The notes below the pieces were generated by a model, which saw only the letters and a program-made list of their open reading frames with translations, was not told where the DNA came from and searched no databases. Shown piece after piece: positions 3,435 through 59,459 of a stretch of DNA of 61,725 bases. Source of the DNA: Flavobacteriales bacterium (lineage in GTDB: Bacteria > Bacteroidota > Bacteroidia > Flavobacteriales_G > Salibacteraceae); NCBI GenBank assembly GCA_018660685.1, contig JABJJW010000007.1, forward strand, positions 1-61,725, in the 5' to 3' direction. Within the stretch, counting starts at the first letter, position 1; each line of letters begins with the position of its first letter. Position numbers and translations under genes: made by a program.

Positions 3435-4226
3435 TTGAGAAGTAACTGGAAAGATAAATTGGTTTGGGTCACAGGTGCCTCGAGCGGCTTAGGAGAAGCT
3501 TTTGCCCGTGAGTTTGCGAACCAAGGAGCTAAAGTGGTCCTCAGCAGCCGATCAGAAGAGAAGCTCGAGGCCATTCTGCAAACGCTTCCGGGCGAAAATC
3601 ACAAGATCATTCCGGTCGATGTTTCCAATCAAGATTCCATTCAAAGAGCTATTCAAGAAAATGCTGAGATTGTTTCAGCTACGGATGTCCTCATCAATAA
3701 TGCTGGAATTAGTCAACGGGCATTGATGACCGAGACCTCGTTAGAAACCGAGCGACGAATTATGGAAACCAACTATTTCGGAGCGACTGCTTTGACCAAG
3801 GCTGTATTACCAGGTATGATCAACAGAAAGAACGGATCCATCATCGTCATGAGTTCGCCTGCAGGAGCTTTCGGATTCCCACTCAGATCGTCTTATTCCG
3901 CTTCGAAACACGCACTTCACGGATACTTTGATACACTCCGCGCTGAATTAAAAGGATCTGGAATAACGATCACCTTGGCTCTCCCCGGACGCGTGAAAAC
4001 CAACATGTCCATAAATGCCATGATGGGAGACGGGAGCAACCAAGGAACAATGGATGAGAGGTTGAATCATGGCCTCGAACCTGATATCTGTGCGAAAAGA
4101 ATAATGAACGCGGCATCAAAGGGTAAAGCAGAGCTTTATCTGGGTCGCGAGCAGGCCCTTATATATATTAAGCGATACTTACCTAGTTTGTTTCGGAAGA
4201 TCGTAACCAAATTCAATCCTAATTAG
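3435..4226 (+). CDS. Short-chain dehydrogenase/reductase (SDR)
   Basis: This 263-residue NAD(P)-dependent oxidoreductase of the classical SDR family has a Rossmann fold. The cofactor motif TGASSGLG lies at residues 13-20, the NNAG motif at 88-91, and the catalytic Ser140/141 with Tyr154-x3-Lys158 in SSYSASK. Start is TTG at 3435; the protein begins five residues before the first beta strand, which fits the family. It resembles DHRS7-like SDRs, but substrate is unknown. The VOC gene follows after one base, so the two are surely cotranscribed and may act on the same compound. Confidence 0.88.
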   Translation: MRSNWKDKLVWVTGASSGLGEAFAREFANQGAKVVLSSRSEEKLEAILQTLPGENHKIIPVDVSNQDSIQRAIQENAEIVSATDVLINNAGISQRALMTETSLETERRIMETNYFGATALTKAVLPGMINRKNGSIIVMSSPAGAFGFPLRSSYSASKHALHGYFDTLRAELKGSGITITLALPGRVKTNMSINAMMGDGSNQGTMDERLNHGLEPDICAKRIMNAASKGKAELYLGREQALIYIKRYLPSLFRKIVTKFNPN

Positions 4227-30829: not shown

Positions 30830-33800
30830 ATGAAATGGACGTTCAAAATCATTCTCGCTCTCCTTGGTTTTTTGACCATTGACCAAGCGTCCTTTTCGCA
30901 AACAATTACAACGTTTCCACATTTTGAAGACCTCGAGACTTGGGATACTTGCAATACTAACTGTGGTGTGGCCTGTACGCCTGGAAGTGGGTGGACAAAT
31001 CAAGGAACGGCAGAGTTTGTAACAGACACGAACGGAACGCCGACTGGTGTGACTGGTCCACCGATCGATCATAATCCCGGTACTATCTCAGGTAGATATA
31101 CCTACGTTGAGTCGTCTGGAGCTTGTAATGCCGACACAGCTATCCTTGAAACGCCCTATGTTGATCTGAGTTCTGTGGTAAATCCAAGAGTTCGATTTTG
31201 GTATCATCAGTACGATGGTGCATTTGGAGCTCCGATGGGCACTGATACTTTCTACGTCGAGATCACTACGGACTCTGGAACGACTTGGAATGTAGTTCAT
31301 ACCGGACCTGATCAAGATACCGCCAATGAATGGTTGGCCGATTCTTTCAGTCTAGCGAGTTTCGTCGGTATGAGTGTAAAGTTGAGATGGATATGGATGA
31401 CCAACAACCAGTTCAGCGATTTTGGTTTGGATGACTTTGCTTTCTTAGGGGAACAAACATTGGACGCAGGCATAGATTCAATTTATTCATCCACTGGGTT
31501 TTGTGGTAATGTTCCGAGCAACATATGTTTCCGATTGAGCAATGCCGGCATCATCGATATAGACACTGTGACCATTTTTACGACGATTAATGGTGTCCCT
31601 TTCAATAGCCCGTTTGCCTTTGATGATACGTTGACCGCAGGCTCAGATACTCTTATCTGTCTTGGCACCAGCAGTCTCACAACCGGAGATACGATTCGAA
31701 TTTATTCGAGTATGCCTAATAATCTGGCCGATACCTTCAACACAAATGACACCGCAGAATTGATTGTAACAATATTTTCTCCGGCTACAGCGGAAGCCGG
31801 ACCGGATACGACCATATGTGGGTTAAATGCATACACCCTTGGTGGTAGCCCAACAAGTAACTATGCGACATCCTATATCTGGAGCCCGAATAATTATGTA
31901 AACGACACCACCATAGCGAACCCGATAGGCTATTTTACACAAAGTGGGAGTTTTATTTACACGCTCTTCGTTGAAGATTCAAATGGTTGTTTTAACTATG
32001 ATACGGTTAGTATCACGGTCCATCCCATTCCCATCATTGACGCTGGACCGGACACAACCGTTTGCATTGGCGATTCTGTTCAAATCGGAGGTGCACCAAC
32101 AACAATCTCACCGAGTACTGTTTTGTGGTCGAACGGTTCGCAGTTGAGTGACAGTAATGCCTTTAACCCAATGGCGTTTATCCCAATCACACAGATTTTT
32201 ACGCTCACCGTATCTGACACCTTTGGTTGTGATTATCTCGATACTGTAAATATATTCTCTTCCTCAAATCCTGGGCTGAATGCCGGAGACAGTATGGGAG
32301 TTTGTATAGGGGACAGCGTAACCCTCGGCGGTTCTCCTACTGCCTCAAATTTTAGTTCAATTGTATGGACGCCTTCGGCATCACTCAACTTTGACACAGT
32401 TCCAAACCCTGAAGCAGCGCCTACTGTTCCTACTGTTTACACTATCGTTCTATTTGATACCAACAATTGCTCGCACACCGACTCAGTTGAAGTAACTCCG
32501 GTTGCATTACCGAGTGCTGACGCAGGGCCAGACACTCTACTTTGTGCCTACGATAGCTTTATGGTTGGGGGCTCACCAACAGGAGGAATCAACTCTATTT
32601 ATAATTGGTCGCCTTCTCCATTGTTCTCCAACCCAAATGCAGCAAATCCTATGGCACTTGTGCTGAGCGATACTTTGCTCATCGTTGAGGTTACTGACAC
32701 TTTAACTGGCTGTTCCCGGTTTGACACAGCAGTAATTACCATTCATCCATTGCCGGTGGCAGATGCAGGATTTGCGAATCTCACAATATGTGGTGCAGAC
32801 ACGATAACTATTGGCGGTAACCCTACGACAGGAATTGGGAATACGGTGCTTTGGACAAGTAACAATACGCTGTCTGGAGCCGCGTTGTTTAACCCTCTTC
32901 TTACTGCCTCGATCTCGGATACAATCTTGTTGACGACCACAGAGTTGGTAAACAATTGCAGCAATTTTGACACGATCTTTTTAGTTGTGGATACGTTACC
33001 CCAAGTTGAGGCAGGTCCGAATCTCAGTGTTTGCTTGGACGATTCGATTGCTCTAGGAGGTTCACAAACAGGTCCTAGCGGAGTTTCATTCTCATGGTCA
33101 TATTCGGGAATACTAAGTGACTCAACATTGGCAAATCCCCTTGGATCTCCGACTCAGGACACTTTGTTTTTTGTAACCGTAACTGATGGGAATGGATGCC
33201 AGTCAATCGACTCGCAAATGGTGGTGGCCGATTCACTTCCAGTTCCAGTAGTTGATCTCGTACCTGATACTTCTTGTTTGGAGGATTCGACTCAGCTGGT
33301 AGCGACTGGAGGAGTCTCGTATGCTTGGGGCAATTCGACTTTTTTAAGCGATGACAGTATCTCAAACCCATTTGCATTCTTTCCAGCAACTTCAATCGTA
33401 GGCTTGACCGTTACGGATGCCAATGGCTGTTCTGATTCGACGCAGATTACAGTTCCTTATTGGCCTCTACCTGTTGTAGGTGCAGGGGGTGACGATACGA
33501 TTTGTGATGGTAATTCAGCTCCATTGGTTGCGACTGGAGCGCAGAACTATGTGTGGTCACCGGGCACCGGTCTTTCGGGGACAGCCATAGCTAATCCACT
33601 GGCAAGCCCGAATTCTACTCAAACCTATGTGGTAGAAGGAACAGATGTAAACGGGTGCAAATCCACTGACACGGTCACGATTTTTGTCAATGTCTTGCCT
33701 CAAGCGAACGCAGGCTCTGATGAAGCTATTTGCTTTGGAGATTCGATTCAAATAGGAGGTAGTCCAACGGGGCCGATCGGTTCATCCTTCAGTTGGAATA

Positions 33801-35626
33801 CGACATCGGTCAATTTTGACACATTGGCCAATCCGCAATACTATGGAAATACTGTAGGCACGTTCACGATAGAGGTGACAGTGACAGATCAAAACATGTG
33901 TTCGAGTTCGGATGACATGGATTTGACGGTTAATGTGCTGCCAGTTCCCATGATAAACATTCAGGACACGACCATTTGTGACGGAGATAGTCTTCTGGTT
34001 TGGGCAAGTGGTGGTCTATCATATCAATGGTTTCCATCTTCTTCCTTGGAAAGTCCAACCTCCGATTCGAGTTATGCTTTTCCGGGTGATACAACATTGT
34101 ACACGGTTACGGTCACAGATGTCAATGGTTGTGAAGCAAGCATCAGTGATACCCTAGATGTGTATCCACCGAATGCGGCCGACGCTGGACCAGACACCTT
34201 CTTATGTCAACAAGATTCGATCATTCTTACCGCAACGGGCGGAGTCATTTATCAATGGAACTCATCGGTTTTCCTGCTCAATGGTTCAACCGCGAATCCG
34301 CAGGTATTCCCTCTCGTGACGGAGACCTTCACGGTCACAGTTACTGACGCAAATACGTGTGAGAATTCAGATCAGATAACGGTCGTGGTCAAGCCATTAC
34401 CGAATATCAGTGCGGGCGCGGATAAGAGAATGTGTATTGGTCAAACTGTGAAAATCGGAGGTTCGCCAACGGGGCCATCTAGTGCGACGTACACTTGGAT
34501 CCCGTCAGTCGGTCTGACGGACTCGACTATTAGAAACCCAAAATCATCCCCCGATCAAACGACGATTTATAAAGTGATCGGTACGACAACATTTGGGTGC
34601 CAAGATTCAGCGGAAATGGAGGTCGTTGTAGATACCTTACCGATTGTAAAGATTTTGGACAGTCCAAGTCCAATTTGTCTGGGAGACACTACATCGGCGA
34701 GAGTAACAAATGGCTTCATGTCCTATTCATGGGCTCCGATTGAAGGAATTCTCGGTCAGGACAGTAACAGAGTGTCGTTCAGTCCGACAAAAAATAGGCG
34801 GTACATACTCACCGTCATAAATGATTTCGGATGTCAAAACGTAGACACAGTTAATATTACCGTTTGGCAGTTGCCGAAGGCGGTTGCTGGAGATGATAAA
34901 GAGATGTGTGCCGAAGACTCGGTAACGCTGTTTGCTTCAGGCGGAGTCTTGTATGATTGGGACAATGGTGCGTTGCTGAGCAATGCAAGTTCGAATGTAG
35001 GTTCGACCAAAGCGTATCCTTTGGTAACAACTGATTTTACAGTAACGGTGACTGATTCAAACGGATGTAAGTCATCAGACATGGCAAATGTGCGCGTGTT
35101 CCAATTACCAGAGGCGAATGCAGGGGAGGATATTGAGAATTGTGATGTTGATGTCGTTTATCTAGGATCGACCTTGGTTATTGACCCAACACTGAGCTAC
35201 AGATGGACACCAGAAGGGGGATTAAGCGATCCATACGGCCCTAATCCGTATGTGATTGAACCAGAGAACAGAGTATACACCCTTGAGGTACAAGACATGA
35301 ATGGTTGTTTCAATTATGACAGTGTTTTGGTTGAAGGAGATTGCTATCCCATCATTTATGCTCCAAATGCTTTCACGCCTGGGCAAGACAACAATAATGA
35401 TGTCTTCATCATTCATACAATCGGAATAATAGAAACCAAGCTTGTAATCTATGATCGTTGGGGTCAGTCTGTGTTTGAAACGGACGATCTTAACGAAGGA
35501 TGGGGCGGAGAAGTAGGTGGAAATTTAGGCCTAGCTCCAGCGGGCGCTTATCATTGGTTGCTCTCATACAGGGTCGAAGGAGCAAAGAAGACAACCAAGC
35601 GAGGTAGTATTAACCTGCTCAGATAA
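30830..35626 (+). CDS. Large secreted multi-repeat protein with type B T9SS tail
   Basis: This 1598-residue protein has a signal peptide (KIILALLGFLTIDQASFSQ). Residues about 25-210 form a jelly-roll-like domain (FWYHQYDGAFG ... LRWIWMTNN, MAM-like). After a linking beta domain come about 15 tandem PKD/Ig-like repeats of about 80 residues. Each opens with a motif like ADAGPDTTICG, carries a central W, and ends with a motif like VTVTDxNGC. The last ~90 residues (YAPNAFTPGQDNNNDVF, IYDRWGQSVFET) are the gliding-motility-associated C-terminal domain, which directs export by T9SS with SprF-type partners. Likely an elongated surface adhesin. No PorP/SprF gene is next to it. Confidence 0.9.
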   Translation: MKWTFKIILALLGFLTIDQASFSQTITTFPHFEDLETWDTCNTNCGVACTPGSGWTNQGTAEFVTDTNGTPTGVTGPPIDHNPGTISGRYTYVESSGACNADTAILETPYVDLSSVVNPRVRFWYHQYDGAFGAPMGTDTFYVEITTDSGTTWNVVHTGPDQDTANEWLADSFSLASFVGMSVKLRWIWMTNNQFSDFGLDDFAFLGEQTLDAGIDSIYSSTGFCGNVPSNICFRLSNAGIIDIDTVTIFTTINGVPFNSPFAFDDTLTAGSDTLICLGTSSLTTGDTIRIYSSMPNNLADTFNTNDTAELIVTIFSPATAEAGPDTTICGLNAYTLGGSPTSNYATSYIWSPNNYVNDTTIANPIGYFTQSGSFIYTLFVEDSNGCFNYDTVSITVHPIPIIDAGPDTTVCIGDSVQIGGAPTTISPSTVLWSNGSQLSDSNAFNPMAFIPITQIFTLTVSDTFGCDYLDTVNIFSSSNPGLNAGDSMGVCIGDSVTLGGSPTASNFSSIVWTPSASLNFDTVPNPEAAPTVPTVYTIVLFDTNNCSHTDSVEVTPVALPSADAGPDTLLCAYDSFMVGGSPTGGINSIYNWSPSPLFSNPNAANPMALVLSDTLLIVEVTDTLTGCSRFDTAVITIHPLPVADAGFANLTICGADTITIGGNPTTGIGNTVLWTSNNTLSGAALFNPLLTASISDTILLTTTELVNNCSNFDTIFLVVDTLPQVEAGPNLSVCLDDSIALGGSQTGPSGVSFSWSYSGILSDSTLANPLGSPTQDTLFFVTVTDGNGCQSIDSQMVVADSLPVPVVDLVPDTSCLEDSTQLVATGGVSYAWGNSTFLSDDSISNPFAFFPATSIVGLTVTDANGCSDSTQITVPYWPLPVVGAGGDDTICDGNSAPLVATGAQNYVWSPGTGLSGTAIANPLASPNSTQTYVVEGTDVNGCKSTDTVTIFVNVLPQANAGSDEAICFGDSIQIGGSPTGPIGSSFSWNTTSVNFDTLANPQYYGNTVGTFTIEVTVTDQNMCSSSDDMDLTVNVLPVPMINIQDTTICDGDSLLVWASGGLSYQWFPSSSLESPTSDSSYAFPGDTTLYTVTVTDVNGCEASISDTLDVYPPNAADAGPDTFLCQQDSIILTATGGVIYQWNSSVFLLNGSTANPQVFPLVTETFTVTVTDANTCENSDQITVVVKPLPNISAGADKRMCIGQTVKIGGSPTGPSSATYTWIPSVGLTDSTIRNPKSSPDQTTIYKVIGTTTFGCQDSAEMEVVVDTLPIVKILDSPSPICLGDTTSARVTNGFMSYSWAPIEGILGQDSNRVSFSPTKNRRYILTVINDFGCQNVDTVNITVWQLPKAVAGDDKEMCAEDSVTLFASGGVLYDWDNGALLSNASSNVGSTKAYPLVTTDFTVTVTDSNGCKSSDMANVRVFQLPEANAGEDIENCDVDVVYLGSTLVIDPTLSYRWTPEGGLSDPYGPNPYVIEPENRVYTLEVQDMNGCFNYDSVLVEGDCYPIIYAPNAFTPGQDNNNDVFIIHTIGIIETKLVIYDRWGQSVFETDDLNEGWGGEVGGNLGLAPAGAYHWLLSYRVEGAKKTTKRGSINLLR
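31788..35340 (+). repeat. Array of about 15 PKD/Ig-like coding repeats
   Basis: Repeats of about 240 bp encode beta-sandwich modules with one cysteine near the start (TICxG) and one at the end (NGC). Openings counted by eye include EAGPDTTICG, DAGPDTTVCIG, DAGPDTLLCAY, NAGSDEAICFG, DAGPDTFLCQQ and NAGEDIENCDV. Divergence is high, so these are old duplications. Confidence 0.75.
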
Positions 35627-46804: not shown

Positions 46805-46858
46805 AATTTACGTGAACGGTAGAGGAACTACGCTTTCTGCGCTTTTTCCACGTAAATT
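46805..46858. promoter_or_regulatory. 10-bp inverted repeat over the giant adhesin promoter
   Basis: AATTTACGTG (46805-46814) and CACGTAAATT (46849-46858) are exact inverted copies with 34 bp between them, about four helical turns centre to centre. The right arm covers most of the -7 box. This is the layout of a dimeric or looping repressor/activator site. The repeat is seen directly; the role is inferred. Confidence 0.5.
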
Positions 46859-46860
46859 TG
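46853..46860 (+). promoter_or_regulatory. Promoter -7 box TAAATTTG of the giant adhesin
   Basis: Exact TAnnTTTG match. The transcript would start near 46867, which places the TTG at 46858 inside the promoter and makes ATG 46870 or 46882 the real start. Confidence 0.5.
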
Positions 46861-46881
46861 AGTCAGAGAATGAATCGCATC

Positions 46882-49800
46882 ATGAACCTACTTAATCGAT
46901 TAGTATTCACGCTAAGCGTGATTTGCTATTTCTGTTTATCATCAAACCTATACGCACAGACAGTTCCGAACAATTCGAACTTCTATGCTGGAACCGATTT
47001 AAATGCATCGATCAATGGTACCGGTGACAGTGTCACACTTCAGGCCATAATCGCCCACGATTGCCCCGGATCAATTAGTACCACGGATACAATTCTGCTC
47101 TTACAGAATTGTGGCGGTCCGTTAGTCAAACTAGGATTTGTTAGTGAGTCGAACATCAGCGATGCGAATGGTGTGACCACGACTTGTGCTTCGGGCAGTT
47201 TCTTAGGGAGATTCGCTGCCATCTACGAAAACACCGTTCCTATTTCAGATTATTCAGGATGCAACCCAGTAACCTTTAGGATTTATCCAACCGACAGAAT
47301 TAATGCCGAAAATCTCAATAACAGTGGTTCATCAACGAGCGACCGATTGCGAGTTTTCATGCAGATGTACTTTGCCGTAGATTCTACGAACAGTGTTCCT
47401 TCCATAGGAGCCAATATGAATCCGTATGTGTGTTCTGGATCAGACATCGAGTGGGATCCACAGATTACCGATGCAGAAGACGATAGTCTTGTTATTTCAT
47501 TTAGACAACCACAAACGGGAGCGAGCAGTGGATCAAATATTTCATATGCATCAGGATTTACACTGGCAGACCCAATTGAAAGTGGGGACAGTCTAGGAAC
47601 TGAACGTGGAATTATTTATTTCACCTCACCGACAGACACCGGTCATTATCAAATTGCTCTTCAGATTCAGGAGTATGATAAAGCAACAGGAAATCTAATC
47701 AGCTTGTCATATCGTGATTTCCAATTCTACGTGAATGGGAGTTGTACCAATGATGGTCCCACCATCGCTTCATCGATTTCAAACGAAGTTGCTTGTACGG
47801 AATCATCGCCTTTTGTCATCGAAATAGACACTGCTCAAGCTGCGAGTTTCGATTTAACGTTTACTGGTACGGGATCTGAAACGTTGACCCTTTTAAGTAC
47901 GGCGACTAGCTGGTTGAATGGATCATCAACTTCTGTCTCTACGTCCGGTAACGCGGCTACCATGACTGTGAGCTGGACACCAACTGCTGCAGATGTTGGA
48001 AGGCATGTATTCACGATTAGTGCTGAAGACAATGGCTCTCCTATCACCGGGAAATCAGCTCAAGAAATTATTGTGATTGTCAATGAGCAATCGCCACCCA
48101 TCTCTATTACGAGTGTGGACATTGTGGATGAGACATGTGCTGGAAATGATGATGGTGAAATCACCATCAACACGACCGGCGGAATAGGACCATTTGGATT
48201 TCAAGTGATTTTTGGGCCACCGTTGACCATTGTTACTCAAGATTCAAATCACTTTGTCAACTTGGCTCCGATTTCTTACACCGTCGTAGCATACGATAGC
48301 AGTGATGGAACTTCTGATACGGCATACTTCCAAAATGTGGGTGACGGAACTACCTTCTTTTCTGGAGGATTTAACAGCATTGAGCCAACGTGCCATGACA
48401 CATGCATCGGTGAGGCGAGCATTACCACCTTCCCGCCTTCCGGTTCGCGAACCTATGCCTGGGATAATAGTTCTTCAACCGCCCTTACAACAGACCTATG
48501 TCAAGGTCTAAATATTGTAACGGTCACTCAGAATGCTACTAGCTGTTCATTTATTGATACAGTATTTATAGTTGAAGCGCCCGTCGTATATGGGGTTACA
48601 GACTCAAGTTTTGACGCCTCTTGTGGTGGTGCAGCCGATGGGCAGGCTTATATTTCAGGTCACGGAGGATTTGCATTTTCTTCAAATACGAGTGATTATG
48701 TTATCGACCAAACGAATGGGTCGCATAATCCATACCCGTATGATTATAATGGGGCGACTAACTTCAGCCTTGGATCAGGATCTATTGATGATGGTGTTTC
48801 GAATCAAATCAATATTGGCTTCAATTTCGACTTTTATGGAACTACGTATACTCAGTTTAGAATATCAACTAACGGATTTATAACATTTGACAATAGCACT
48901 GCAAATGGATGTTGTACGGGGCAAAGTGTCCCAAATACAGGAACACCAAATAACCTGATTGCTGGTTTCTGGGAAGATCTCGACCCAGGAGGAGGCGGAC
49001 AGATATCGTACTATACGGAAGGAACTTCTCCTTACAGAATATTGGTGGTCAATTTTTTTGAAATTCCGCACTACCCAAACAATGATGATGTAACATTTCA
49101 AATAGTCTTGTATGAGACGTCCAACATCATTGAGATTTTTGGAACTGTGCTTGACCCGGATGGTGGAAACCACACTCAAGGTCTTGAAAACACCGGCGGT
49201 ACATTGGGCATTACGGCAACGGGACGTAACCAAGCCAACTTCACCGCGACCAACGACTATATCGCTTTTATTCCACAAACTCAAGCATTTTCATATTCTT
49301 GGCCAGGAGGTGGAACAGGAAGCTCACAAACCACACTTTTAGCTGGTAATTATTGCGTTACACTTACTGATTCATCTGGAGGAACTTCTTGCTCTGACAC
49401 GCTTTGTTTGACCATCGATCAACCAGACACACTATTCATAGATACAACAAGTGTGACTCAACCTGCTTGTGCGGGTGACAGCTCAGGTTCTATCACTGTT
49501 CTGGCAACAGGCGGCGATGGTGGGCCATATACTTACAACTGGAATACAGGCGCAACGGGCGCTGCGCTCAACAACCTACCAGCAGGAACTTATACCGTAA
49601 CTGCAACTGACCTTTCTGGTTGTGATGATTCACTTACTGTGGTTCTCAATAATGCACCAGCAATCACGATCTCCTTCACTTCCAATAACGTGAATTGTCT
49701 TGGAGGTAACGATGGTGACGCAACCGCGAGTGCCTCGGGCGGAGACGGGGGCGCTTATACCTATACATGGAGTACCGGAGCTACAGGTGCGACTGAAACC

Positions 49801-52800
49801 GGGCTCACGGCTGGAACCTACCTGGTAACAGCTGAGGACGGAGCGGGATGTACTGGAGTGGATTCCATTACGATTACTGAACCTGGAACTGCCATTTCAG
49901 TTTCTATTACCGATTCAACCGACGTTACCTGCGCTGGCGCTGATGATGGTGATGCAACTGCATTGGCTACAGGTGGCACAGGAACCATAACTTATAATTG
50001 GAGCAATGGTGGAACTGGGACTTCGATCACAGGTCTTTCTGGTGGCACCTACACTGTTACTGCTGAGGACGTAAATGGATGTCCAGATTCTGCAACTGTC
50101 GTTATTACTCAACCACTTACTGGGTTGACTGTATCCATCGATACAGCCGGCGACCCGCTTTGTAGTGGAGAGAACTCTGGTATTATCATAGCAAGTGGAT
50201 CGAGTGGAACAGCACCTTATGCATACGCATGGAGCAACGGTGACAATGATTCGGTTGCAAATAATCTTACCGCTGGGACATACATTGTTACAGTAACTGA
50301 TGATAATGGTTGTACAGGAACTGACTCCGCAACATTAACTGACCCATTACCTCTCTTTGCCGGGGCGAATTCTACTGACCCGACATGTCAGAATAGCACG
50401 GATGGAACCGCAACAGGTTTTGGAATCCAAGGAACTGCTCCCTACACATTTGAATGGAGTAATGGTTCAACTGCACAGGTGCAGACTGGCTTGACTGCCG
50501 GTACATATACAGTTACAGTCACAGATGATAACGGTTGTACGGCAGTGACAGATGAGACAATCAGTCCGCCAAACGCATTTACATTGACCATGGATTCTCT
50601 TGATCCTAGTTGTAATGGAATTGATGACGGTGAGGCCTATGCTGTCGTCACTGGAGGTACAGGGAACTTCACATTCTTATGGAATACGACTTCAACGAAC
50701 GATTCGATCTTCGGACTTTCGGCTGGGGCATATTCCGTGATAGTTACAGACACGAACAATTGTTCTGATACTGGGCAGGTCAACTTGGTTGAACCGACTG
50801 CCGTTTCTGTCTCTATTATTGATTCTCTTGACCCGACTTGCGACGACGATGACGGAGAAGCCGAAGCATTGGCAACCGGTGGTACTGGAACAATAACATA
50901 TACGTGGAGTAATGGTGGCAACACTGCGGCGATCACGGGATTAGCTGGAGGAGTGTATGAAGTAATTGCCGAGGACGCAAATGGATGTCAGGATAGCGCT
51001 TCTGTAACACTGGTAACAGCAGCAGGGTTTGTAGCGAATGGAATATTAATAGCTGACGATAGCTGTACCACTTCTGTAGGATCGGCTTCTGTGTCCATGG
51101 TCGGTGGATCTGCGCCATTTGGCTTTAGCTGGAGTAATGGCGGATCATCCCAGACGATAACGGGCTTGCTCGCCAACACCTACACGGTGACAGTGACGGA
51201 TAATGATAATTGTACCGATACTGCCGTAGTGGTAGTTGACGATACATGCGGTTGTAACTGGAACGCAACGGGTGTTGTCGTCGCAGATGTTGATTGTAAT
51301 GGTGATTCAACTGGTGTAGCGACTGTTACACATGCCGGAGCCGCTCCGACTGTGACTTATGTTTGGTCAAACGGTTCTACGAATGATTCTTTAATTGGGG
51401 TTCCTGCTGGAACATATACCGTTACTGTCACTGATGTCAACGGTTGCACCGATACATCTGAGGTCGATATTACTCAACCTGGATCCGCTGTCACGGCATC
51501 AATCAGTTCGACTTCTTCGCCTACGTGTGCAGGAGGTAATGATGGTCAGGCAGTCGCGGTCGGCGGTGGAGGAACATCTCCATATTCATACTTGTGGACA
51601 AATGGCGAGACAACCGATACTGCTTTTGCACTCACAGCTGGAACGCATACTGTAACAATTACAGATGATAATGGCTGTTTCCAAACAGCCTCCACAACAA
51701 TTTCGGATGGAACTACCGTTGCAGTTACCTTATCTACCACTAATAGCTTCTGCTTCTTCTGTACTGGTACAGCTACTGCCACAGTGAGTGGCGGATCGAC
51801 ACCATACATCTATACATGGAGTAGTGGACAGATAGATACTTCCAACAGTACTACCAACACACAGAACGCACTTTGCTCTGGAATCTATCAAGTAACCGTT
51901 ACGGATGACGATGGATGTTCAGGTGCTGACACAGCAACCGTGAGTGATTTGTTTACACCTACCATCAGCACATCTGTTACCGATGCGAATTGCTTCGGAG
52001 ATTGTGATGGTGAAGTCGTTGCATCATACACATGTTTCTCTTGCGATCCTTTAGAGTGGTTTGTATTTCCTGATACAACCACTGTTATCAATACAGGAGA
52101 TACGTTTAGTAATGTGTGCGCAGGAACATATTTATTGAGGCTCGAAACAGGATTTGGGTGTATCAGATTCGATACAGTGATTGTCGGAGAACCAACAGAC
52201 CTCATTCTTACAATGGATACTCTGAATTCAGGTTGCGGAGGTTCGGGTACAGGTCAGGCTTCTGTCAGTGTTAGTGGTGGAACAGCCCCATACAGCTACG
52301 TTTGGAATACCGCAGCGACAACGGATACCATATCCAATCTTACGGCAGGAACTTACAGCGTTATTGTCACGGATTCACACGGATGTTTAGATACGGGTTT
52401 TGTTGTTATTACAGCTCCATCAGGTTTTACAGCTGAGGCAAATTGGATCTCCGATGCTTCTTGCAACGGCGGTAATGATGGAATGGCATATGCAACCCCA
52501 CTTGGTGGCACGAACCCGCCATACGATTACTCTTGGAGCAATGGGTCATCAACGAACAACAGCTTCACGAATGACACAGTCTCATTCCTCGTAGCAGGAA
52601 TATATACGGTAACAATCACAGACGATAGTGGATGTGTTGATACGGATACCGTCAATATTGATGAGCCGGATACGATATCCATTGCGATTACAGAAACGAG
52701 CATTTCTTGCAACGGACCTGGAAATGATGGAACGCTCACAGCGAATGCTTCTGGAGGTACACCTGGGTATACATATGCATGGTCAACTGGAGGTGGCGGT

Positions 52801-55800
52801 CCGACCATCACTGGTCTTACTGCTGGAACGTACTGCGTGACAGCCACAGACAATAATCTTTGCCAAAATTCAACATGCTACATTCTCACTGTTCCAACTG
52901 GAATAATCGCTTCAATCATTGACAGTGGTGATGTTTCTTGTAATGGTGGAACCGATGGTGATGCAGAAGCGTCAGCAACTGGAGGGACTGGAAACTACAC
53001 GTACAACTGGTCTACCGGTGCCACATCAGCTGCGGTGACTGGATTGACCGCTGGAACATACTGCGTCACCGTTACTGACACGAGTACATCTTGTACAGAT
53101 ACCGTTTGTATTATTATCGACGAGCCCCTTGTCCTTACTGCGAGCATTGACTCTACTGTTGACAATGTTTGCTTCAACGGAACCGATGGAAAGGCATTTG
53201 CTTCAGGGTCAGGTGGTACACCGACTTACTCTTTCAGTTGGTCGAACGGATCAATCGTCGATTCTGCTACAGCTCTTCCAGCTGGTATGGTTACGGTCAC
53301 AATAACAGATGCCAATGGCTGCACAGCTACGGATCAAATATTGATTACGGAGCCCGGAACAGGGCTGGATGCATCTGCATCGGTTCTTGCCCAACCTCTT
53401 TGTAATGGTGATAGTGGGACTGTGATAGCCTCTGCTACTGGCGGTTCAGGAACCTATACATTCTTGTGGCCGGGCGGATCAACGAATGACACTACTGTAT
53501 TTGCAGCTGGAACATATTGTGTGACTGTTACGGATGGAGGAATTTGTGAAGACACAGCTTGTGTAACGCTCGTAGATCCAACAGTGGTTTCCGCAACATT
53601 CAACCCTACAAATCCAGACTGCCCTGGTGGAAATGACGGAACCATCACCGCAAATGGAACAGGAGGATCAGGAACCTACGTTTCCTATAACTGGAGTACA
53701 GGGGCTTCATCTCAAACAATTAATGGACTTACTGCAGGTTGTTACACTGTTACCGTTACAGATGATAATGGTTGTACAGGGTCAGCAACTCAATGTCTCA
53801 CAGATCCAGGTGGATTGACAGCGACATTCTCGAATGTCAACCCAACAAGCTGCGGGTCGTGTAATGGATCAGCCACAGTCAATGTTACCGGTGGATCTTC
53901 ACCATACAATTACTCATGGCCAAGCGGTGGCACTGACTCTACCGAAACAGGCCTTTGCGCTGGAATTATCATTGTGACAGTCACAGACAACAATGGTTGT
54001 GCAGATTCATTCTCTGTAAATGTTCCCAATCTCGGAGCAGATACAGTATTCGCATCTGTAGTTCAAAACACACTGTGCAACGGTGATTCTTCAGGAATTG
54101 GAGCGGCGAGCTATGTATGTACTGCAGCTCCTTGTAATGTTGAATGGTACGAAGTCGGTGGAACCACACTTCTTGGAACTCAAGACACTGTCACTGGCCT
54201 TTGGGCGGGCGACTTCTTCGTGCAGCTTACCAATGATTCTGGATGTGTATCGTTTGATACCATCACCATTACTGAACCGACACCGGTAGTTGCCAGTATT
54301 GACACTTCTACCAACGTTTCTTGTCTCGGTGGATCAGACGGAACAGCGAATGCTTCCGGTTCTGGCGGAACTGTTGGATCAGGATATACTTTCCTATGGC
54401 CATCAGGCGGTACCGGTGCAGTTGAAACTGGACTTGCTGCGGGCAGCCATTGTGTAACTGTTACGGATGGAAATGGCTGTTCGGACACAGCATGTGTAAC
54501 GATCACGGAACCTACTACTGGACTCACGGTGATTGCATCTATAATTGACAGTGTAAGTTGTAATGGGGGATCTGACGGTGGTGCAGAAGCACAGGCCGCT
54601 GGAGGAAGTGGCACATATACCTACACATGGAGTGGTACTTCTCAAATTGGAGATACGATCAACAACTTGACAGCAGGAACGTACATTGTTACTGCATCTG
54701 ACGGAGGATCATGTACAGCAACGGATACTGTTGTGATAACAGAGCCAACGCCAATTGTTATTACAGTTGACTCTACGACCAACCCGTCTTGTCCTGGTGA
54801 TTCGAATGGTGCGGCAACGGTGACCGCTTCAGGTGGTACGCCAACCTATTCTTACTTGTGGCCTTCGGGTAACACGGGTCAAACAGAAACTAACCTTCCG
54901 GCGGGTACATACTGCGTGACGGTTACAGATGGAAATCTCTGTACTGAAATTGAGTGTGTGACGATCGTTGATCCAGCAGGAATTGCAACAACATTCAGCG
55001 CAATTGTGGCGTCGAGTTGCACAGTCTGCGATGGAACGGCAACAGCTAATCCGACAGGAGGAAATGGAACACCATTTACATTCTTGTGGGACAATGGTCA
55101 AACAGGAGCAACGAATGACTCCTTGTGCGCTGGAATTAACACCGTTACAATTACGGACTCAGCAGGCTGCTTCACCATAGAAAACGTATTGATAAACGCT
55201 GACAGTGCTGATACTGTCACTGCGTCTGGAATGAACGCCACATGTGGAAACTGTGACGGTGAAGTATATGCGACTTACACATGCACATTCGCTCCTTGTA
55301 CAGTTGAGTGGACGAACTTCGGATCAGGATCGGTTGTGGGAACAACGGACACCGTTACCGGTCTATGTGCTGGAACCTATGCCGTTGAATTGACTAACGA
55401 TCAAGGTTGTGTGAGTGTGGATACGATTACCATTACAGAACCGACACCTGTTGACCCTAACGCAGCTGTTTCAATGATCACGTGCTTCGGCGCCGATGAC
55501 GGGTCAATTATTCTCTCACCAACAGGTGGGTCGGGAACTTATACCTACACATGGAGTAACGGAGCTGGTAATACAGCAAGCAACACAAACTTGAGTGCGG
55601 GACCATATACGGTCACAATTGACGACGGTGGTGGTTGTGATACAATTGTAACCTTCAACATTATTGAGCCAACCGAAATTTTCGGCAACGAAACAATCGC
55701 CAACGCTTCTTGTAGTGGAGAGTGCGATGGTAGCATTCTACTTGCACCAAGTGGAGGCGGAGGAACATATACCATTACTTGGGATCCAGTTCCTTCAAAT

Positions 55801-58512
55801 GGAAATGGAACGGTCCTAGCGGACAGTCTTTGTGCAGGAGAGCATAGAGTGACCATTACAGATATTGATGGATGCTCCTTATTGGATACATTCCAAATCA
55901 CGGAGCCAGCAGCAATCGTTCAATCTGGAATTACGATTACGGACGCAACTTGCGGAGATTGTGACGGTGAGATTTCGGCAACATATTCTGGTGGAGCAGG
56001 TGGATTAACGTTCATGTGGTCGACAGGAGATACGACATCAACGCTTGATTCCTTGTGTTTCGGAGCATACGATCTCACAGTTACTGATGTCGATGGATGT
56101 ACTGCAGAATTCTTGTATCCGGTTTCTGAAACGGATGGACCAGATATTAGTCTTGCCGGTATCAATGCCTCTGCACAAGGCGCTTGTGATGGTTCAGCAA
56201 CAGCCACAGTGGTTAGCTCACTTGGAACTGTGACCTTCAATTGGTCAAATGGGGACAATGGAAATACTGCTGACACACTTTGTGCAGGAATATACATTGT
56301 CACAGCAACGGACACGAACGGTTGCTCGACCGTAGATACAATTACGATTACGGAGCCGACGCTGCTACTCTTGACGTTTGACGTTACAGAAATCAGCTGT
56401 CAAGGTGGAGGATGCGATGGAATGATCGTAGCCAACGTTGGAGGTGGAACTACTCCATACACATACGCATGGTCGAATGGTGGTACGACCGATACCATCA
56501 GCAACCTGTGTGCTGGTACTTACACATTGACACTTACAGATAGTACAGGACAAGTGATTGTTGATTCGGTAGTTCTTGCCGATCCTCAGCCATTCGTTAT
56601 TGTGTCTACCGTAAATGACATTAGTTGTCCAGGAGAATGCGATGCATCGATATCATTGAACATATCTGGTGGCTTGCCACCTTACAGCATCCTATGGAAT
56701 ACAGGAGACACAACAACGGGTCTTTCGGATCTCTGCGCTGGTCTTTATAGTGTGACGATCACTGATACTGCTGGATGTTCCGATAGTTTGACATTCAACC
56801 TAACGGATCCAGCTGCGATCACCATGACCGTTGATAGCATGATCGAACCTGATTGCCAACAAGCAAATGGTATGATTGGCGTTACTGCTGCTGGAGGAAA
56901 CGGCGGACCATACACTTATGAGTGGCTCGATGCTTCTGGATCGGCTCTATTGCCTCCACAGAATACTCAAGTTGCAATAAACCTTGCTGCTGGTATCTAC
57001 AATGTTAGAATCGTTGATTCGGCGGGATGTGAGGATACGATCAACGTTGTCTTGAATAACAACAATGCTCCGAGTATTGCACTCGACAACATTGACGATG
57101 TCAGTTGCTTTGGCGAGTGTGATGGAGCGGTGTTCATATCTATAACGGGTGGTACAACGCCGTACAGCTTTGCGTGGTCGAGTGGAGGAGTAGCCGAGGA
57201 CGACACAGCTCTTTGTGCCGGACCTGATACGATAACCGTCACTGACGACAATGGATGCCTTGCATTTGACATCTATGAGATCGATACACCAGAAGAGATT
57301 TATCTAGAAGTTCAAGAAGTACAATCTGTGGTCTGCGGAAGCGACTGTGATGGTTCAATTACCATCAGCGCTGCTGGTGGAACGGGTCCATATACATACA
57401 GCTGGAGTAACGGCGACACGGATACAACACTGACTGATCTCTGTGTTGGGCTTTACGGATTAACCGTTACTGATGCCAACAACTGCGAGTTCGTTACGAG
57501 CATCAATGTAAGCGGAGCTACGGCGATTGTGATGACCGTAGATACGGTAGAACAACCTACTTGTACAAACACAGGTGATGGATCTGTATTTGTTACGGTC
57601 ACCGGTGATACTCCGCCATATTCGTACTTGTGGATGGGTGACAACGGCGACACACTCTCAATTCAAGACTTAACAGGCGCCTTAGCTGGAACATATGTTC
57701 TTCAGCTCACCGATGACAGTGGATGTGTCGTATTAGATACGTTCGAATTAGAAGCACAGTTCTTTGTAGAGGTCACCGCATTGGATGACTTCGAAGTTTG
57801 TCCGAACGATCAAACCATTCCGATTTCAGCAACTGATTCAGGAGCAACTTCTGTGAGATGGTTGAACGCGAATGGAACGATTCACACGGAAAGTAACTCA
57901 GCTATTGTATCTGTGACGGGCGATACTTCCATGTACGTCGTAGAAGGAATCAACGGTGTTTGTGTAAGTCGTGATACGGTTTACATCTACGAAACAGACG
58001 GTCCAGGACTGGATGCTGGTGGAGACCGAGCAATCGAACCACTGGAGAGCATTGAAATTGGAGGTAATCCAACAGCCAATCCTGGCGTTGAAGTTACTTG
58101 GGCACCAGAAATTGATATCAGTGACATTACTGCTCTGAATCCAACGGTATATCCTTTGGAGACGATCACCTACTACGTATTTGCTACTGATGCCGATGGG
58201 TGTTCTGGAATTGACAGCATGATCGTAACGGTCGAAAAAGTAGTTGATCCGGTTGGTGGATTCTCACCAAACAGTGACGGCGTTAATGACGAATTCTTCA
58301 TCGATCGAATCGATCGGTTCCCAAGTGCAGTCGTGAAAATCTTTAATCGTTGGGGTAACCCAATATTCGAATCAGCTCCGGGTTATGTATCGCCATGGAA
58401 TGGAACATTCCAGGGAAGTAAATTACCGGTTGGTACCTATTACTACATCATCGACTTGAATGACGATGATTATAAAAAGCTAATCACCGGTCCGGTAACA
58501 ATCCTGAAATAA
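46882..58512 (+). CDS. SprB-like giant gliding adhesin with type B T9SS tail
   Basis: A protein of about 3876 residues from the ATG at 46882 (MNLLNRLVFTLSVICYFCLSS signal peptide); ATG 46870 is also possible. Residues about 20-430 form an N-terminal beta domain set shared with the 911-residue protein. About 38 SprB-type repeats of about 75 residues follow, each with a cysteine near the start, a central W(S/N)NG-like strand, an AGTYxVTVTD strand and a closing NGC. A nidogen-like ~200-residue domain is inserted in the second repeat. The end (GGFSPNSDGVNDEF, KIFNRWGNPIFES) is the gliding-motility-associated sorting domain. SprB of Flavobacterium johnsoniae is the mobile surface adhesin for gliding; a similar role is inferred. 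The PorP/SprF gene follows after 11 bp, as expected. Confidence 0.93.
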   Translation: MNLLNRLVFTLSVICYFCLSSNLYAQTVPNNSNFYAGTDLNASINGTGDSVTLQAIIAHDCPGSISTTDTILLLQNCGGPLVKLGFVSESNISDANGVTTTCASGSFLGRFAAIYENTVPISDYSGCNPVTFRIYPTDRINAENLNNSGSSTSDRLRVFMQMYFAVDSTNSVPSIGANMNPYVCSGSDIEWDPQITDAEDDSLVISFRQPQTGASSGSNISYASGFTLADPIESGDSLGTERGIIYFTSPTDTGHYQIALQIQEYDKATGNLISLSYRDFQFYVNGSCTNDGPTIASSISNEVACTESSPFVIEIDTAQAASFDLTFTGTGSETLTLLSTATSWLNGSSTSVSTSGNAATMTVSWTPTAADVGRHVFTISAEDNGSPITGKSAQEIIVIVNEQSPPISITSVDIVDETCAGNDDGEITINTTGGIGPFGFQVIFGPPLTIVTQDSNHFVNLAPISYTVVAYDSSDGTSDTAYFQNVGDGTTFFSGGFNSIEPTCHDTCIGEASITTFPPSGSRTYAWDNSSSTALTTDLCQGLNIVTVTQNATSCSFIDTVFIVEAPVVYGVTDSSFDASCGGAADGQAYISGHGGFAFSSNTSDYVIDQTNGSHNPYPYDYNGATNFSLGSGSIDDGVSNQINIGFNFDFYGTTYTQFRISTNGFITFDNSTANGCCTGQSVPNTGTPNNLIAGFWEDLDPGGGGQISYYTEGTSPYRILVVNFFEIPHYPNNDDVTFQIVLYETSNIIEIFGTVLDPDGGNHTQGLENTGGTLGITATGRNQANFTATNDYIAFIPQTQAFSYSWPGGGTGSSQTTLLAGNYCVTLTDSSGGTSCSDTLCLTIDQPDTLFIDTTSVTQPACAGDSSGSITVLATGGDGGPYTYNWNTGATGAALNNLPAGTYTVTATDLSGCDDSLTVVLNNAPAITISFTSNNVNCLGGNDGDATASASGGDGGAYTYTWSTGATGATETGLTAGTYLVTAEDGAGCTGVDSITITEPGTAISVSITDSTDVTCAGADDGDATALATGGTGTITYNWSNGGTGTSITGLSGGTYTVTAEDVNGCPDSATVVITQPLTGLTVSIDTAGDPLCSGENSGIIIASGSSGTAPYAYAWSNGDNDSVANNLTAGTYIVTVTDDNGCTGTDSATLTDPLPLFAGANSTDPTCQNSTDGTATGFGIQGTAPYTFEWSNGSTAQVQTGLTAGTYTVTVTDDNGCTAVTDETISPPNAFTLTMDSLDPSCNGIDDGEAYAVVTGGTGNFTFLWNTTSTNDSIFGLSAGAYSVIVTDTNNCSDTGQVNLVEPTAVSVSIIDSLDPTCDDDDGEAEALATGGTGTITYTWSNGGNTAAITGLAGGVYEVIAEDANGCQDSASVTLVTAAGFVANGILIADDSCTTSVGSASVSMVGGSAPFGFSWSNGGSSQTITGLLANTYTVTVTDNDNCTDTAVVVVDDTCGCNWNATGVVVADVDCNGDSTGVATVTHAGAAPTVTYVWSNGSTNDSLIGVPAGTYTVTVTDVNGCTDTSEVDITQPGSAVTASISSTSSPTCAGGNDGQAVAVGGGGTSPYSYLWTNGETTDTAFALTAGTHTVTITDDNGCFQTASTTISDGTTVAVTLSTTNSFCFFCTGTATATVSGGSTPYIYTWSSGQIDTSNSTTNTQNALCSGIYQVTVTDDDGCSGADTATVSDLFTPTISTSVTDANCFGDCDGEVVASYTCFSCDPLEWFVFPDTTTVINTGDTFSNVCAGTYLLRLETGFGCIRFDTVIVGEPTDLILTMDTLNSGCGGSGTGQASVSVSGGTAPYSYVWNTAATTDTISNLTAGTYSVIVTDSHGCLDTGFVVITAPSGFTAEANWISDASCNGGNDGMAYATPLGGTNPPYDYSWSNGSSTNNSFTNDTVSFLVAGIYTVTITDDSGCVDTDTVNIDEPDTISIAITETSISCNGPGNDGTLTANASGGTPGYTYAWSTGGGGPTITGLTAGTYCVTATDNNLCQNSTCYILTVPTGIIASIIDSGDVSCNGGTDGDAEASATGGTGNYTYNWSTGATSAAVTGLTAGTYCVTVTDTSTSCTDTVCIIIDEPLVLTASIDSTVDNVCFNGTDGKAFASGSGGTPTYSFSWSNGSIVDSATALPAGMVTVTITDANGCTATDQILITEPGTGLDASASVLAQPLCNGDSGTVIASATGGSGTYTFLWPGGSTNDTTVFAAGTYCVTVTDGGICEDTACVTLVDPTVVSATFNPTNPDCPGGNDGTITANGTGGSGTYVSYNWSTGASSQTINGLTAGCYTVTVTDDNGCTGSATQCLTDPGGLTATFSNVNPTSCGSCNGSATVNVTGGSSPYNYSWPSGGTDSTETGLCAGIIIVTVTDNNGCADSFSVNVPNLGADTVFASVVQNTLCNGDSSGIGAASYVCTAAPCNVEWYEVGGTTLLGTQDTVTGLWAGDFFVQLTNDSGCVSFDTITITEPTPVVASIDTSTNVSCLGGSDGTANASGSGGTVGSGYTFLWPSGGTGAVETGLAAGSHCVTVTDGNGCSDTACVTITEPTTGLTVIASIIDSVSCNGGSDGGAEAQAAGGSGTYTYTWSGTSQIGDTINNLTAGTYIVTASDGGSCTATDTVVITEPTPIVITVDSTTNPSCPGDSNGAATVTASGGTPTYSYLWPSGNTGQTETNLPAGTYCVTVTDGNLCTEIECVTIVDPAGIATTFSAIVASSCTVCDGTATANPTGGNGTPFTFLWDNGQTGATNDSLCAGINTVTITDSAGCFTIENVLINADSADTVTASGMNATCGNCDGEVYATYTCTFAPCTVEWTNFGSGSVVGTTDTVTGLCAGTYAVELTNDQGCVSVDTITITEPTPVDPNAAVSMITCFGADDGSIILSPTGGSGTYTYTWSNGAGNTASNTNLSAGPYTVTIDDGGGCDTIVTFNIIEPTEIFGNETIANASCSGECDGSILLAPSGGGGTYTITWDPVPSNGNGTVLADSLCAGEHRVTITDIDGCSLLDTFQITEPAAIVQSGITITDATCGDCDGEISATYSGGAGGLTFMWSTGDTTSTLDSLCFGAYDLTVTDVDGCTAEFLYPVSETDGPDISLAGINASAQGACDGSATATVVSSLGTVTFNWSNGDNGNTADTLCAGIYIVTATDTNGCSTVDTITITEPTLLLLTFDVTEISCQGGGCDGMIVANVGGGTTPYTYAWSNGGTTDTISNLCAGTYTLTLTDSTGQVIVDSVVLADPQPFVIVSTVNDISCPGECDASISLNISGGLPPYSILWNTGDTTTGLSDLCAGLYSVTITDTAGCSDSLTFNLTDPAAITMTVDSMIEPDCQQANGMIGVTAAGGNGGPYTYEWLDASGSALLPPQNTQVAINLAAGIYNVRIVDSAGCEDTINVVLNNNNAPSIALDNIDDVSCFGECDGAVFISITGGTTPYSFAWSSGGVAEDDTALCAGPDTITVTDDNGCLAFDIYEIDTPEEIYLEVQEVQSVVCGSDCDGSITISAAGGTGPYTYSWSNGDTDTTLTDLCVGLYGLTVTDANNCEFVTSINVSGATAIVMTVDTVEQPTCTNTGDGSVFVTVTGDTPPYSYLWMGDNGDTLSIQDLTGALAGTYVLQLTDDSGCVVLDTFELEAQFFVEVTALDDFEVCPNDQTIPISATDSGATSVRWLNANGTIHTESNSAIVSVTGDTSMYVVEGINGVCVSRDTVYIYETDGPGLDAGGDRAIEPLESIEIGGNPTANPGVEVTWAPEIDISDITALNPTVYPLETITYYVFATDADGCSGIDSMIVTVEKVVDPVGGFSPNSDGVNDEFFIDRIDRFPSAVVKIFNRWGNPIFESAPGYVSPWNGTFQGSKLPVGTYYYIIDLNDDDYKKLITGPVTILK
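48370..57760 (+). repeat. Array of about 38 SprB-type coding repeats
   Basis: Counted by eye from the conserved closing strand (AGTYxVTVTDxNGC and variants). Repeats are about 220-240 bp and well diverged. They fall into three cysteine classes: about 18 with only the two common cysteines; 13 with an added CDG-type cysteine plus a cysteine in LCAG; 7 with an added cysteine in AGxYC plus one in a C-x4-C after the closing NGC. Simple repeats fill the first third, the AGxYC class the middle, and the LCAG class the last part. Confidence 0.8.
48661..49280 (+). other. Nidogen-like domain inserted within a SprB repeat
   Basis: Coding residues about 595-800 of the adhesin (counted from ATG 46882) include INIGFNFDFYGTTYTQFRI, STNGFITFD, AGFWEDLDP and VTFQIVLYETSNIIEIFG. 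This pattern resembles NIDO-type extracellular domains. It interrupts a SprB repeat after its first strand, and the repeat resumes at FSYSWPGGGTG. Confidence 0.55.
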
Positions 58513-58523
58513 AGAACTGAATC

Positions 58524-59459
58524 ATGAAAAAGCTATTAATACTTCTCGTCTTTTCAGTATCGGCTTTGTGGTCGCAAGCACAACAGCTCGAACAGTGGAC
58601 TCAGTTTTATATGAACGAGTACATGATCAACCCGGCAGTGACGGGTGCTGATGACTACTATCATGCAAATGCTCTTTACAGAAACCAATGGGTTGGAATT
58701 CAAGACGCCCCGCGGACTTATTATTTGAGCCTTCAGGGACCGATTGTATCAGATGTAATGGGTCTAGGCGGTGCAGTGTTTAGCGACATCGTTGGACATA
58801 CCCGACGGACCGGTCTCCAGCTCTCGTATGCTTATCATTTAAAGATTAGTACAGAATACAAGCTCAGTTTCTCACTCTCAGCGGGATTGTTTCAGTTTGC
58901 TGTTGACGGAGGAAAGCTAAATCTCCAAAACGTGGGTGATATTGCCTTAAGCAATGGCTATATGTCTATTTGGACACCAGATTTTGGATCGGGCGTTCGA
59001 TTCGCAGGCGATAATTTCCATGTCGGAATCTATGTTCCTCAGATCGCAAACATGCGGGCTCAATTCTTTGATGATTTCAGCGAAACAGATAACCTCCTTT
59101 CAAGACATTATTACTTGAACGCCGGATATATGTACGAAATCGATGATGACTTTGACATCGAAGCCAATCTTCTTGGACGGTATGTTACTCCGATGGATAT
59201 GTTTGAGCTTCAGGTTCGAGGAATCTATCAAGAGATGGTGTGGCTAGGAGCTTCTTATAGAACTCCACTGATCTCTGATCAATTACCCGCAGCGGTTGGG
59301 GTGATGGCCGGTTACAAGTTTAAAAACAACTTGACAATCGGATATGCATACGATTTTGATATCGGTGATGTCGGTGTTGCTACGTCGGGATCACATGAGA
59401 TAGTTTTAGGGATTACATTCTCCCGAAAAAACGACGATCCGGTTCTGCCCCCAGAATAG
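58524..59459 (+). CDS. PorP/SprF family type IX secretion partner
   Basis: This 311-residue outer-membrane beta-barrel has a signal peptide (LLILLVFSVSALWSQAQQ). The opening QWTQFYMNEYMINPAVTG and ALYRNQWVGIQDAPRTYYLS are the family signature. In F. johnsoniae SprF, encoded next to sprB, is needed to export SprB; type B sorting domains generally depend on such partners. Here it follows the giant adhesin by 11 bp, so the pair is an export unit. Confidence 0.94.
   Translation: MKKLLILLVFSVSALWSQAQQLEQWTQFYMNEYMINPAVTGADDYYHANALYRNQWVGIQDAPRTYYLSLQGPIVSDVMGLGGAVFSDIVGHTRRTGLQLSYAYHLKISTEYKLSFSLSAGLFQFAVDGGKLNLQNVGDIALSNGYMSIWTPDFGSGVRFAGDNFHVGIYVPQIANMRAQFFDDFSETDNLLSRHYYLNAGYMYEIDDDFDIEANLLGRYVTPMDMFELQVRGIYQEMVWLGASYRTPLISDQLPAAVGVMAGYKFKNNLTIGYAYDFDIGDVGVATSGSHEIVLGITFSRKNDDPVLPPE

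Follow-up and report, generated by a model that had tools for sequence, protein, structure and literature searches.

The adhesin and its locus

The window, by which we mean the whole stretch of 61,725 nucleotides that was analyzed, belongs to a Flavobacteriales genome of 2.58 Mb in 28 contigs (96% complete). Its main features for this study are a giant adhesin gene and the gene that directly follows it:

46858–58512, forward strand: giant T9SS-exported SprB-repeat adhesin, 3884 aa with 137 Cys (ORF, translation, Cys count, PF13573, CHU_C, TIGR04131)
48070–57759, forward strand: repeat array r0–r39, residues 405–3634, about 76 aa per repeat (repeat phasing and alignment)
57760–58236, forward strand: Ig_7-like and PKD-like domains that would extend the staple ladder proposed below (by staples 3569–3702 and 3648–3782), the last domain without an opening cysteine (phasing and cysteine ledger)
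58258–58491, forward strand: T9SS type B C-terminal sorting domain, residues 3801–3878 (CHU_C and TIGR04131)
58524–59459, forward strand: PorP/SprF-family outer-membrane partner without cysteine (profile matches and Cys count)

The adhesin matched the SprB repeat family PF13573 (Pfam) in 33 stretches, with 683.4 bits against a curated cut-off of 28. Its C-terminal end scored 71.4 bits for CHU_C (Pfam, cut-off 27) and 52.4 bits for the T9SS type B domain TIGR04131 (NCBIfam, cut-off 35), as found in substrates of that system. The downstream gene matched TIGR03519 at 234.6 bits (cut-off 90.55); its product has zero cysteines and hence no SprF-type Cys-X-Cys tail. Another PorP-family protein of the same genome (L185) has two cysteines in its C-tail. 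The window also encodes a second large T9SS protein (positions 30830–35626, 1598 aa) with PKD/Ig_7-like repeats; all eight that were aligned carry an opening cysteine and a closing one at comparable positions.

A single scan of named genomes gave eight relatives, of which Acidiluteibacter ferrifornacis (Flavobacteriales, 38% identity) matched best. SprB repeats were found in 35/35 searched genomes of the host's family, many with more than 100 matches each, and 101 of 395 sampled Bacteroidota genomes had a match, 78 of them above the family cut-off.

Cysteine classes within the repeat array

We aligned the 37 intact repeats, leaving out the divergent first repeat (r0), r2/r3, which is split by an insert, and r40 and r41. 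Two base cysteines are nearly universal, as had been noted from the sequence at the outset: the opening cysteine, C1, is present in 36/37 repeats (absent from r33) and the closing cysteine, Cend, is also present in 36/37 (absent from r34). The additional cysteines fall into three pairs, termed B (CxxCDG with LCAG, where LCQG, LCSG, VCAG, LCFG and LCVG were counted as LCAG), C (AGxYC with C-x4-C) and D. The features of the array that bear on these classes are:

48580–49425, forward strand: SprB repeat r2/r3, split by an insert of about 195 aa (profile match, phasing, ledger)
49426–51711, forward strand: simple zone r4–r13, with putative junction-staple cysteines only, except for a linker CxC (repeat alignment and cysteine ledger)
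51247–51255, forward strand: CxC (Cys1464, Cys1466) in the r11/r12 linker (alignment)
51952–52194, forward strand: r15, pair B and pair D (Cys1726/Cys1729; alignment and ledger)
52669–54975, forward strand: zone r18–r27, where r18, r19, r21, r25 and r27 carry the intra-repeat F-G hairpin pair C (repeat alignment)
53581–53808, forward strand: r22, register-shifted pair C (Cys2295/Cys2313), one cysteine two residues earlier and the other two later (alignment, model strands, ledger)
54034–54279, forward strand: r24, pair D alone (Cys2421/Cys2426; alignment and ledger)
54976–57519, forward strand: C-terminal zone r28–r38, with pair B in 9/11 repeats (repeat alignment and orthologues)
55204–55443, forward strand: r29, pair B and pair D (Cys2809/Cys2814; alignment and ledger)

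Both members of pair B were present in 13 of the 37 repeats and neither in the other 24, with no repeat having only one. The earlier note had claimed strict matching of this kind and had named lone pair members as the observation that would count against it; none occurs among the aligned repeats. Its third pair was likewise recovered, complete in all three of r15, r24 and r29. The claim that AGxYC and C-x4-C occur together in seven repeats stands for six, namely five of the 37 aligned repeats (r25 with the variant AGSHC) and the split r2/r3 (Cys833/850). The seventh, r22, has AGCY and a cysteine seven residues after Cend, so that one of the two cysteines sits two residues earlier than usual and the other two later; we count it as a shifted pair C and not as the motif originally described. 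The zones of the feature list also bear out the order that had been read from the sequence, from simple repeats through pair C to pair B, and the pair-B-rich zone lies on the C-terminal side, which is presumably the one closer to the cell.

In the split repeat, C1 (Cys589) lies before the insert, while pair C and Cend (Cys845) lie after it. The insert resembles nidogen (NIDO) weakly, scoring under the curated cut-off, and carries a vicinal CC (685/686); a CC was also seen in 2/7 orthologous ORFs. A DTCxC or DSCxC stretch similar to the CxC of the r11/r12 linker was found in 5/7 of the orthologous ORFs examined.

Covariation of the extra pairs across Bacteroidota

To these repeats we added those of other Bacteroidota, giving 184 sequences with the window protein included (several overlapping, from about 72 genome handles or named contigs), of which 174 yielded counted repeats. 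The sampling of genomes favored the best SprB matches and long frames. From 2550 repeat matches, 2125 were near-complete, 1701 distinct and 1418 remained at 80% non-redundancy; repeats with fewer than 65 filled columns were dropped from within-repeat counts, and those with fewer than 60 from junction counts. The p-values for covariation given here and below disregard shared ancestry.

In the 1418 non-redundant repeats the members of each pair were found almost exclusively together. The counts for pair B were 232 both, 3 first only, 0 second only and 1179 neither; for pair C, 41, 1, 0 and 1363, respectively; and for pair D, 18, 4, 2 and 1390. Pairs B and C exclude each other within a repeat (no repeat has both, p 0.001). 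The extra pairs also ranked among the strongest mean-field couplings of the repeat alignment, with z 32 for pair B (columns 19-51), 14.5 for pair C (56-70), 5.8 for its shifted form (54-72) and 5 for pair D (29-34). A rare further pair at columns 24/46, in the B and E strands, was complete in 5/6 repeats, which came from L110, L075, L081 and L067.

Such matching might also arise if repeats duplicate in blocks and the cysteine motifs travel together without any bond, and neighboring repeats do tend to share their class (OR 33). Inheritance of this kind does not readily account for the behavior of repeats that are otherwise alike. We compared disjoint matched pairs of repeats with 55% identity or more once the cysteine columns were set aside. 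Those differing in pair B differed in both members in 65/65 cases and those differing in pair C in 30/30 (no pair-D case reached the 55% threshold). Moreover, lone members of the pairs are nearly absent, yet of the 23 repeats with a cysteine at column 57, 22 have no other extra cysteine, indicating that lone cysteines are tolerated elsewhere in the repeat. The register-shifted pair of r22 also argues against simple inheritance, since its columns (54+72) preserve the sum of those of pair C (56+70), 126 in both. As expected, this shared sum fits neighbors across a single antiparallel F-G hairpin. The proposal that the extra pairs are alternative disulfide staples was thus upheld by the covariation in 1418 repeats, the co-switching and the strong couplings, and it is the best supported reading of these sequences.

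Position of the cysteines in structure models

We modeled r21–r29 with AlphaFold2 from an alignment of 44 rows (the query and 43 of 69 other candidates), giving a pLDDT of 90.3 and a pTM of 0.42. A second model, from r32 to the end (8 rows), had a pLDDT of 72.7 and a pTM of 0.36, with poor Ig_7/PKD end domains; at these pTM values the models do not establish the relative orientation of domains. The strands of r21 in the first model are A 4–11, B 20–27, C 34–36, E 45–48, F 51–58 and G 64–71. These positions put C1, and with it C2 (the second cysteine of CxxCDG), in the A-B loop, with LCAG immediately ahead of strand F and Cend in the F-G loop.

Independent of the cysteines, the couplings 10-71, 13-73, 12-74 and 13-75 have a near-constant column difference, which indicates that strands A and G run parallel. 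Parallel A and G strands place the A-B and F-G loops at opposite poles of one domain, and therefore the A-B loop of one domain and the F-G loop of the next face the same junction.

Probable pairing of base cysteines between neighboring repeats

One reading of the base cysteines is a disulfide that closes each repeat by joining its C1 to its own Cend, the arrangement of classical Ig domains, with the extra pairs added to it. Their near-invariance, with usually one of each per repeat, is consistent with this. However, the two do not covary within a repeat (1324 both, 52 C1 only, 39 Cend only, 3 neither; p 0.22, n=1418), and parallel A-G coupling sets their loops at opposite poles of the domain. 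Within-repeat pairing would also leave four cysteines of the window protein (427, 3156, 3181 and 3782) as orphans, none of which is orphaned if pairing is across junctions. We therefore regard the within-repeat bond as highly improbable.

A different result was obtained when C1 of each repeat was compared with Cend of the following one. In 1528 adjacent repeat pairs, C1(i) and Cend(i+1) were both present in 1481, both absent in 41 and present singly in only 6 (1 and 5). At 80% non-redundancy (n=1283) there were 1251 with both, 26 with neither and 1 and 5 with a single member (p 4e-48). A scan of lags gave a near-complete association at lag +1 only. With L084 and L055 excluded, the +1 counts were 1456 both, 27 neither and 1 and 5 single, while for the same repeat (lag 0) p was 1; weaker associations at lags -2, -1 and +3 (7, 4 and 4 joint absences) are tentatively attributed to related proteins sharing loss events. 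The mean-field coupling of C1(i) with Cend(i+1), calculated from 1528 junctions (effective 1281), had z 19.7, ranking third overall and first among inter-repeat pairs, and the adjacent columns 16(i)-63(i+1) were coupled at z 3.2.

The joint losses bear further on inheritance. Fourteen similar ones come from L084 alone, as duplication of blocks would produce. Against this, the 41 joint losses formed 14 clusters at 55% identity, or about 13 separate events in 9 protein groups (counted without a phylogeny) after the L054 loss was merged with those of the orthologues because it closely resembles the window protein's case. Together with the co-switching described above, this makes shared descent without a bond a very poor candidate for explaining the pairs.

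By eye, the six junctions with a single member include two (L169) in which the opening cysteine has seemingly shifted by four residues. The remaining four each include a repeat that begins a run; in three of these the alignment is truncated or a cysteine is displaced, leaving one, in L030, without explanation.

We also considered pairing in the other direction, between Cend(i) and C1(i+1), and rejected it: its p of 8e-12 falls to 0.02 at 80% non-redundancy (1213 both, 4 neither, 30 and 36 single), and most of the signal can be traced to L084, in which similar repeats alternate (p 0.012 once L084 and L055 are removed). The idea that the first repeat of an array would as a rule lack Cend was only weakly borne out (11/130 first versus 37/1334 inner repeats, p 0.002) and was not retained; in many cases the first repeat is itself preceded by a different Ig- or PKD-like domain with its own opening cysteine (by eye). 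Within this orthologue group the rule does apply in the cases seen, Cend being absent from the divergent first repeat of L087, L110, L075, L109 and the window protein (r0).

C1 and Cend thus appear to staple neighboring repeats rather than to close a single one, a reading that was absent from the earlier note. Their joint presence and joint loss suggest that each repeat junction is probably stapled by a disulfide between C1(i) and Cend(i+1).

Accounting for the cysteines of the window protein

Under junction pairing, 39/40 junctions of the window protein have a staple and, with 13 B, 7 C and 3 D pairs, 124 of its 137 cysteines are assigned. The remainder are Cys23 and Cys26 (judged by inspection to belong to the signal peptide), an N-terminal group of seven (69–313), 685/686 and 1464/1466. 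All repeat cysteines are accordingly accounted for except the CC of the insert and the CxC of the linker; the N-terminal group, which is odd in number, falls outside the junction model. No domain follows the last PKD-like one to pair with it, and this last domain has no C1 in 8/8 aligned proteins. The distance from Cend(i) to C1(i+1) is 25–28 residues.

A thiol or metal site, for example a redox-active or metal-binding one, in place of structural disulfides would agree with the presence of CxC and CxxC-like spacings and with the twin-cysteine redox chemistry known from the SprF-GldK link (PMC12635249), but the partners of the pairs fit hairpin-neighbor or pole-to-pole positions and we give this explanation very little credence.

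The junction without a staple

The alignment of 37 repeats lacks just two base cysteines, C1 in r33 and Cend in r34, and both fall at a single junction:

56326–56397, forward strand: unstapled r33/r34 junction, residues 3157–3180 (C1 of r33 and Cend of r34 absent; likewise in 7 close orthologues)

This junction lies about 705–730 aa before the C-terminus. It is conserved in 7/7 close orthologues (E 4e-91 or better), which were retrieved with the SprB-free C-terminal domains and not selected for the gap; six of the seven also match by their N-terminus, and one, L087, is from another genus of the same family. In all eight proteins the repeat lacking C1 begins 783–790 residues from where the open frame ends, although whole-frame lengths vary. 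A search for the zoning in homologues had been suggested; here all eight proteins have their last twelve repeats in one class order except at r30, which is either simple or of class B.

In four more distant long-array relatives, L085, L086, L066 and L067 (E 4e-55 to 3e-39), the final 13 repeats are free of such a gap, and pair B is present in 11, 7, 11 and 8 of these 13, respectively. As the distant relatives are B-rich but gapless, the pair-B-rich base is probably older than the r33/r34 gap.

A proposed stapled ladder of domains

We consider it highly probable that the adhesin is a stapled ladder of Ig/PKD-like domains, in which disulfides between C1(i) and Cend(i+1) join neighbors and pairs B, C and D form bonds within domains. 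The pairing is supported by covariation, lag, topology and the cysteine ledger, and its conservation is likewise supported; from these we infer the formation of the disulfides, the mechanics of the rod and the flexible joint at r33/r34. The repeats would form a row of beta-sandwich domains. The A-B loop with C1 would be located at the C-terminal pole of each domain and the F-G loop with Cend at its N-terminal pole, so that C1 of one domain would meet Cend of the following one, an inter-domain disulfide could form at the junction and successive staples would overlap in the manner of a ladder. Within domains, pair B is predicted to join the A-B loop to the E-F loop, pair C to span the F-G hairpin and pair D to lie in the B-C turn. 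These would act as reinforcement set in zones, with B heaviest toward the C-terminal, cell-proximal end, and may harden the domains most near the cell, where the C-terminal sorting domain sits.

The stretch between Cend(i) and C1(i+1) is just 25–28 residues long. The most direct covalent route along such an array would therefore bypass whole domains, and the rod would hardly lengthen even if domains unfolded. With a contour length of 0.36 nm per residue, a path jumping from staple to staple would use about 26 residues per two domains, or roughly 9–10 nm, against about 55 nm for two unfolded, unstapled domains. A single cut of the backbone anywhere within the stapled array would be bridged by at least one staple, with the exception of residues 3157–3180, and r33/r34 is thus the only place in the array where we predict a joint that can bend or be cut.

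It is conceivable, though in our estimation unlikely, that r33/r34 is a functional element retained among these orthologues, serving as a hinge or as a preset breakage site where a fiber of variable length meets a conserved base near the cell. It would do so as the only stretch of the array where a single backbone cut separates the fiber and the only joint free to bend; the gapless arrays of L085, L086, L066 and L067 lower the odds of such a role.

For the window protein alone the stapled ladder implies about 62 disulfides. Neither DsbB nor VKOR was found in its own genome (96% complete, as noted), where there is one DsbA-family match (G000 C24:89717-90256), an observation that speaks against the ladder and raises the question of how dozens of disulfides per molecule would be made. 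If the proposal is correct, SprB-type adhesins would be covalent ladders and not chains of independent domains, and this would account for the ability of fibers so thin to bear load and resist proteases. The rule could then be read from sequence alone, yielding for each adhesin a map of its staples, its reinforced zones and any missing staple.

Comparison with known systems

The window protein shares its PF13573 repeats and its T9SS type B sorting domain with T9SS adhesins such as SprB of Flavobacterium johnsoniae, and as in that system a gene of the PorP/SprF family follows directly. The SprF protein is reported to have a Cys-X-Cys in its periplasmic C-tail that is invariant in close homologues and needed for F. 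johnsoniae gliding, and the disulfide described in that work links SprF to GldK and is different from the junction staples proposed here (PMC12635249). Unlike SprF, the partner encoded in the window has no cysteine, and because it lacks the twin cysteines of the SprF tail (PMC12635249) we do not call the window protein an SprB orthologue. In the open-licence literature we found no description of disulfides in SprB repeats, whether at junctions or specific to a class.

Other giant surface proteins offer partial parallels. The giant adhesin of Mobiluncus mulieris is also an Ig-like rod hardened covalently, with an extra disulfide between strands of a domain (PMC10619420). Its ester, isopeptide and disulfide bonds each stay inside a domain, and the linker joining the two domains of the solved pair is described as flexible (PMC10619420), whereas the basic staple of the window protein, as predicted from its sequence, would join neighboring domains. 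The RII repeats of the Marinomonas ice adhesin are Ig-like extender domains too, arranged in a long series at the surface of the bacterium, but they are stabilized by calcium and not by disulfides (PMC4083281).

The closest structural counterpart was the Aureispira grappling hook protein A (GhpA), the best Foldseek match of both models (E 9e-24 and E 2e-27). GhpA chains also came first in VIA-align (Z about 10, with a very large rmsd over many domains). It was the best PDB sequence match as well, with E 1.2e-23 for the SprB alignment and E 1.8e-130 for a PKD-type profile built from the repeats of the 1598-aa protein, one version of which drifted into SprB repeats. Cryo-EM entries for GhpA include 9flp, 9fly, 9flw and others. 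GhpA differs in its type of repeat, which is Ig_7/PKD-like, but shares with the window protein a succession of closing-then-opening cysteine pairs, eight in one aligned stretch, 26–29 residues apart. The junction bond that we propose for SprB-type adhesins may therefore already have been seen in the structures of GhpA.
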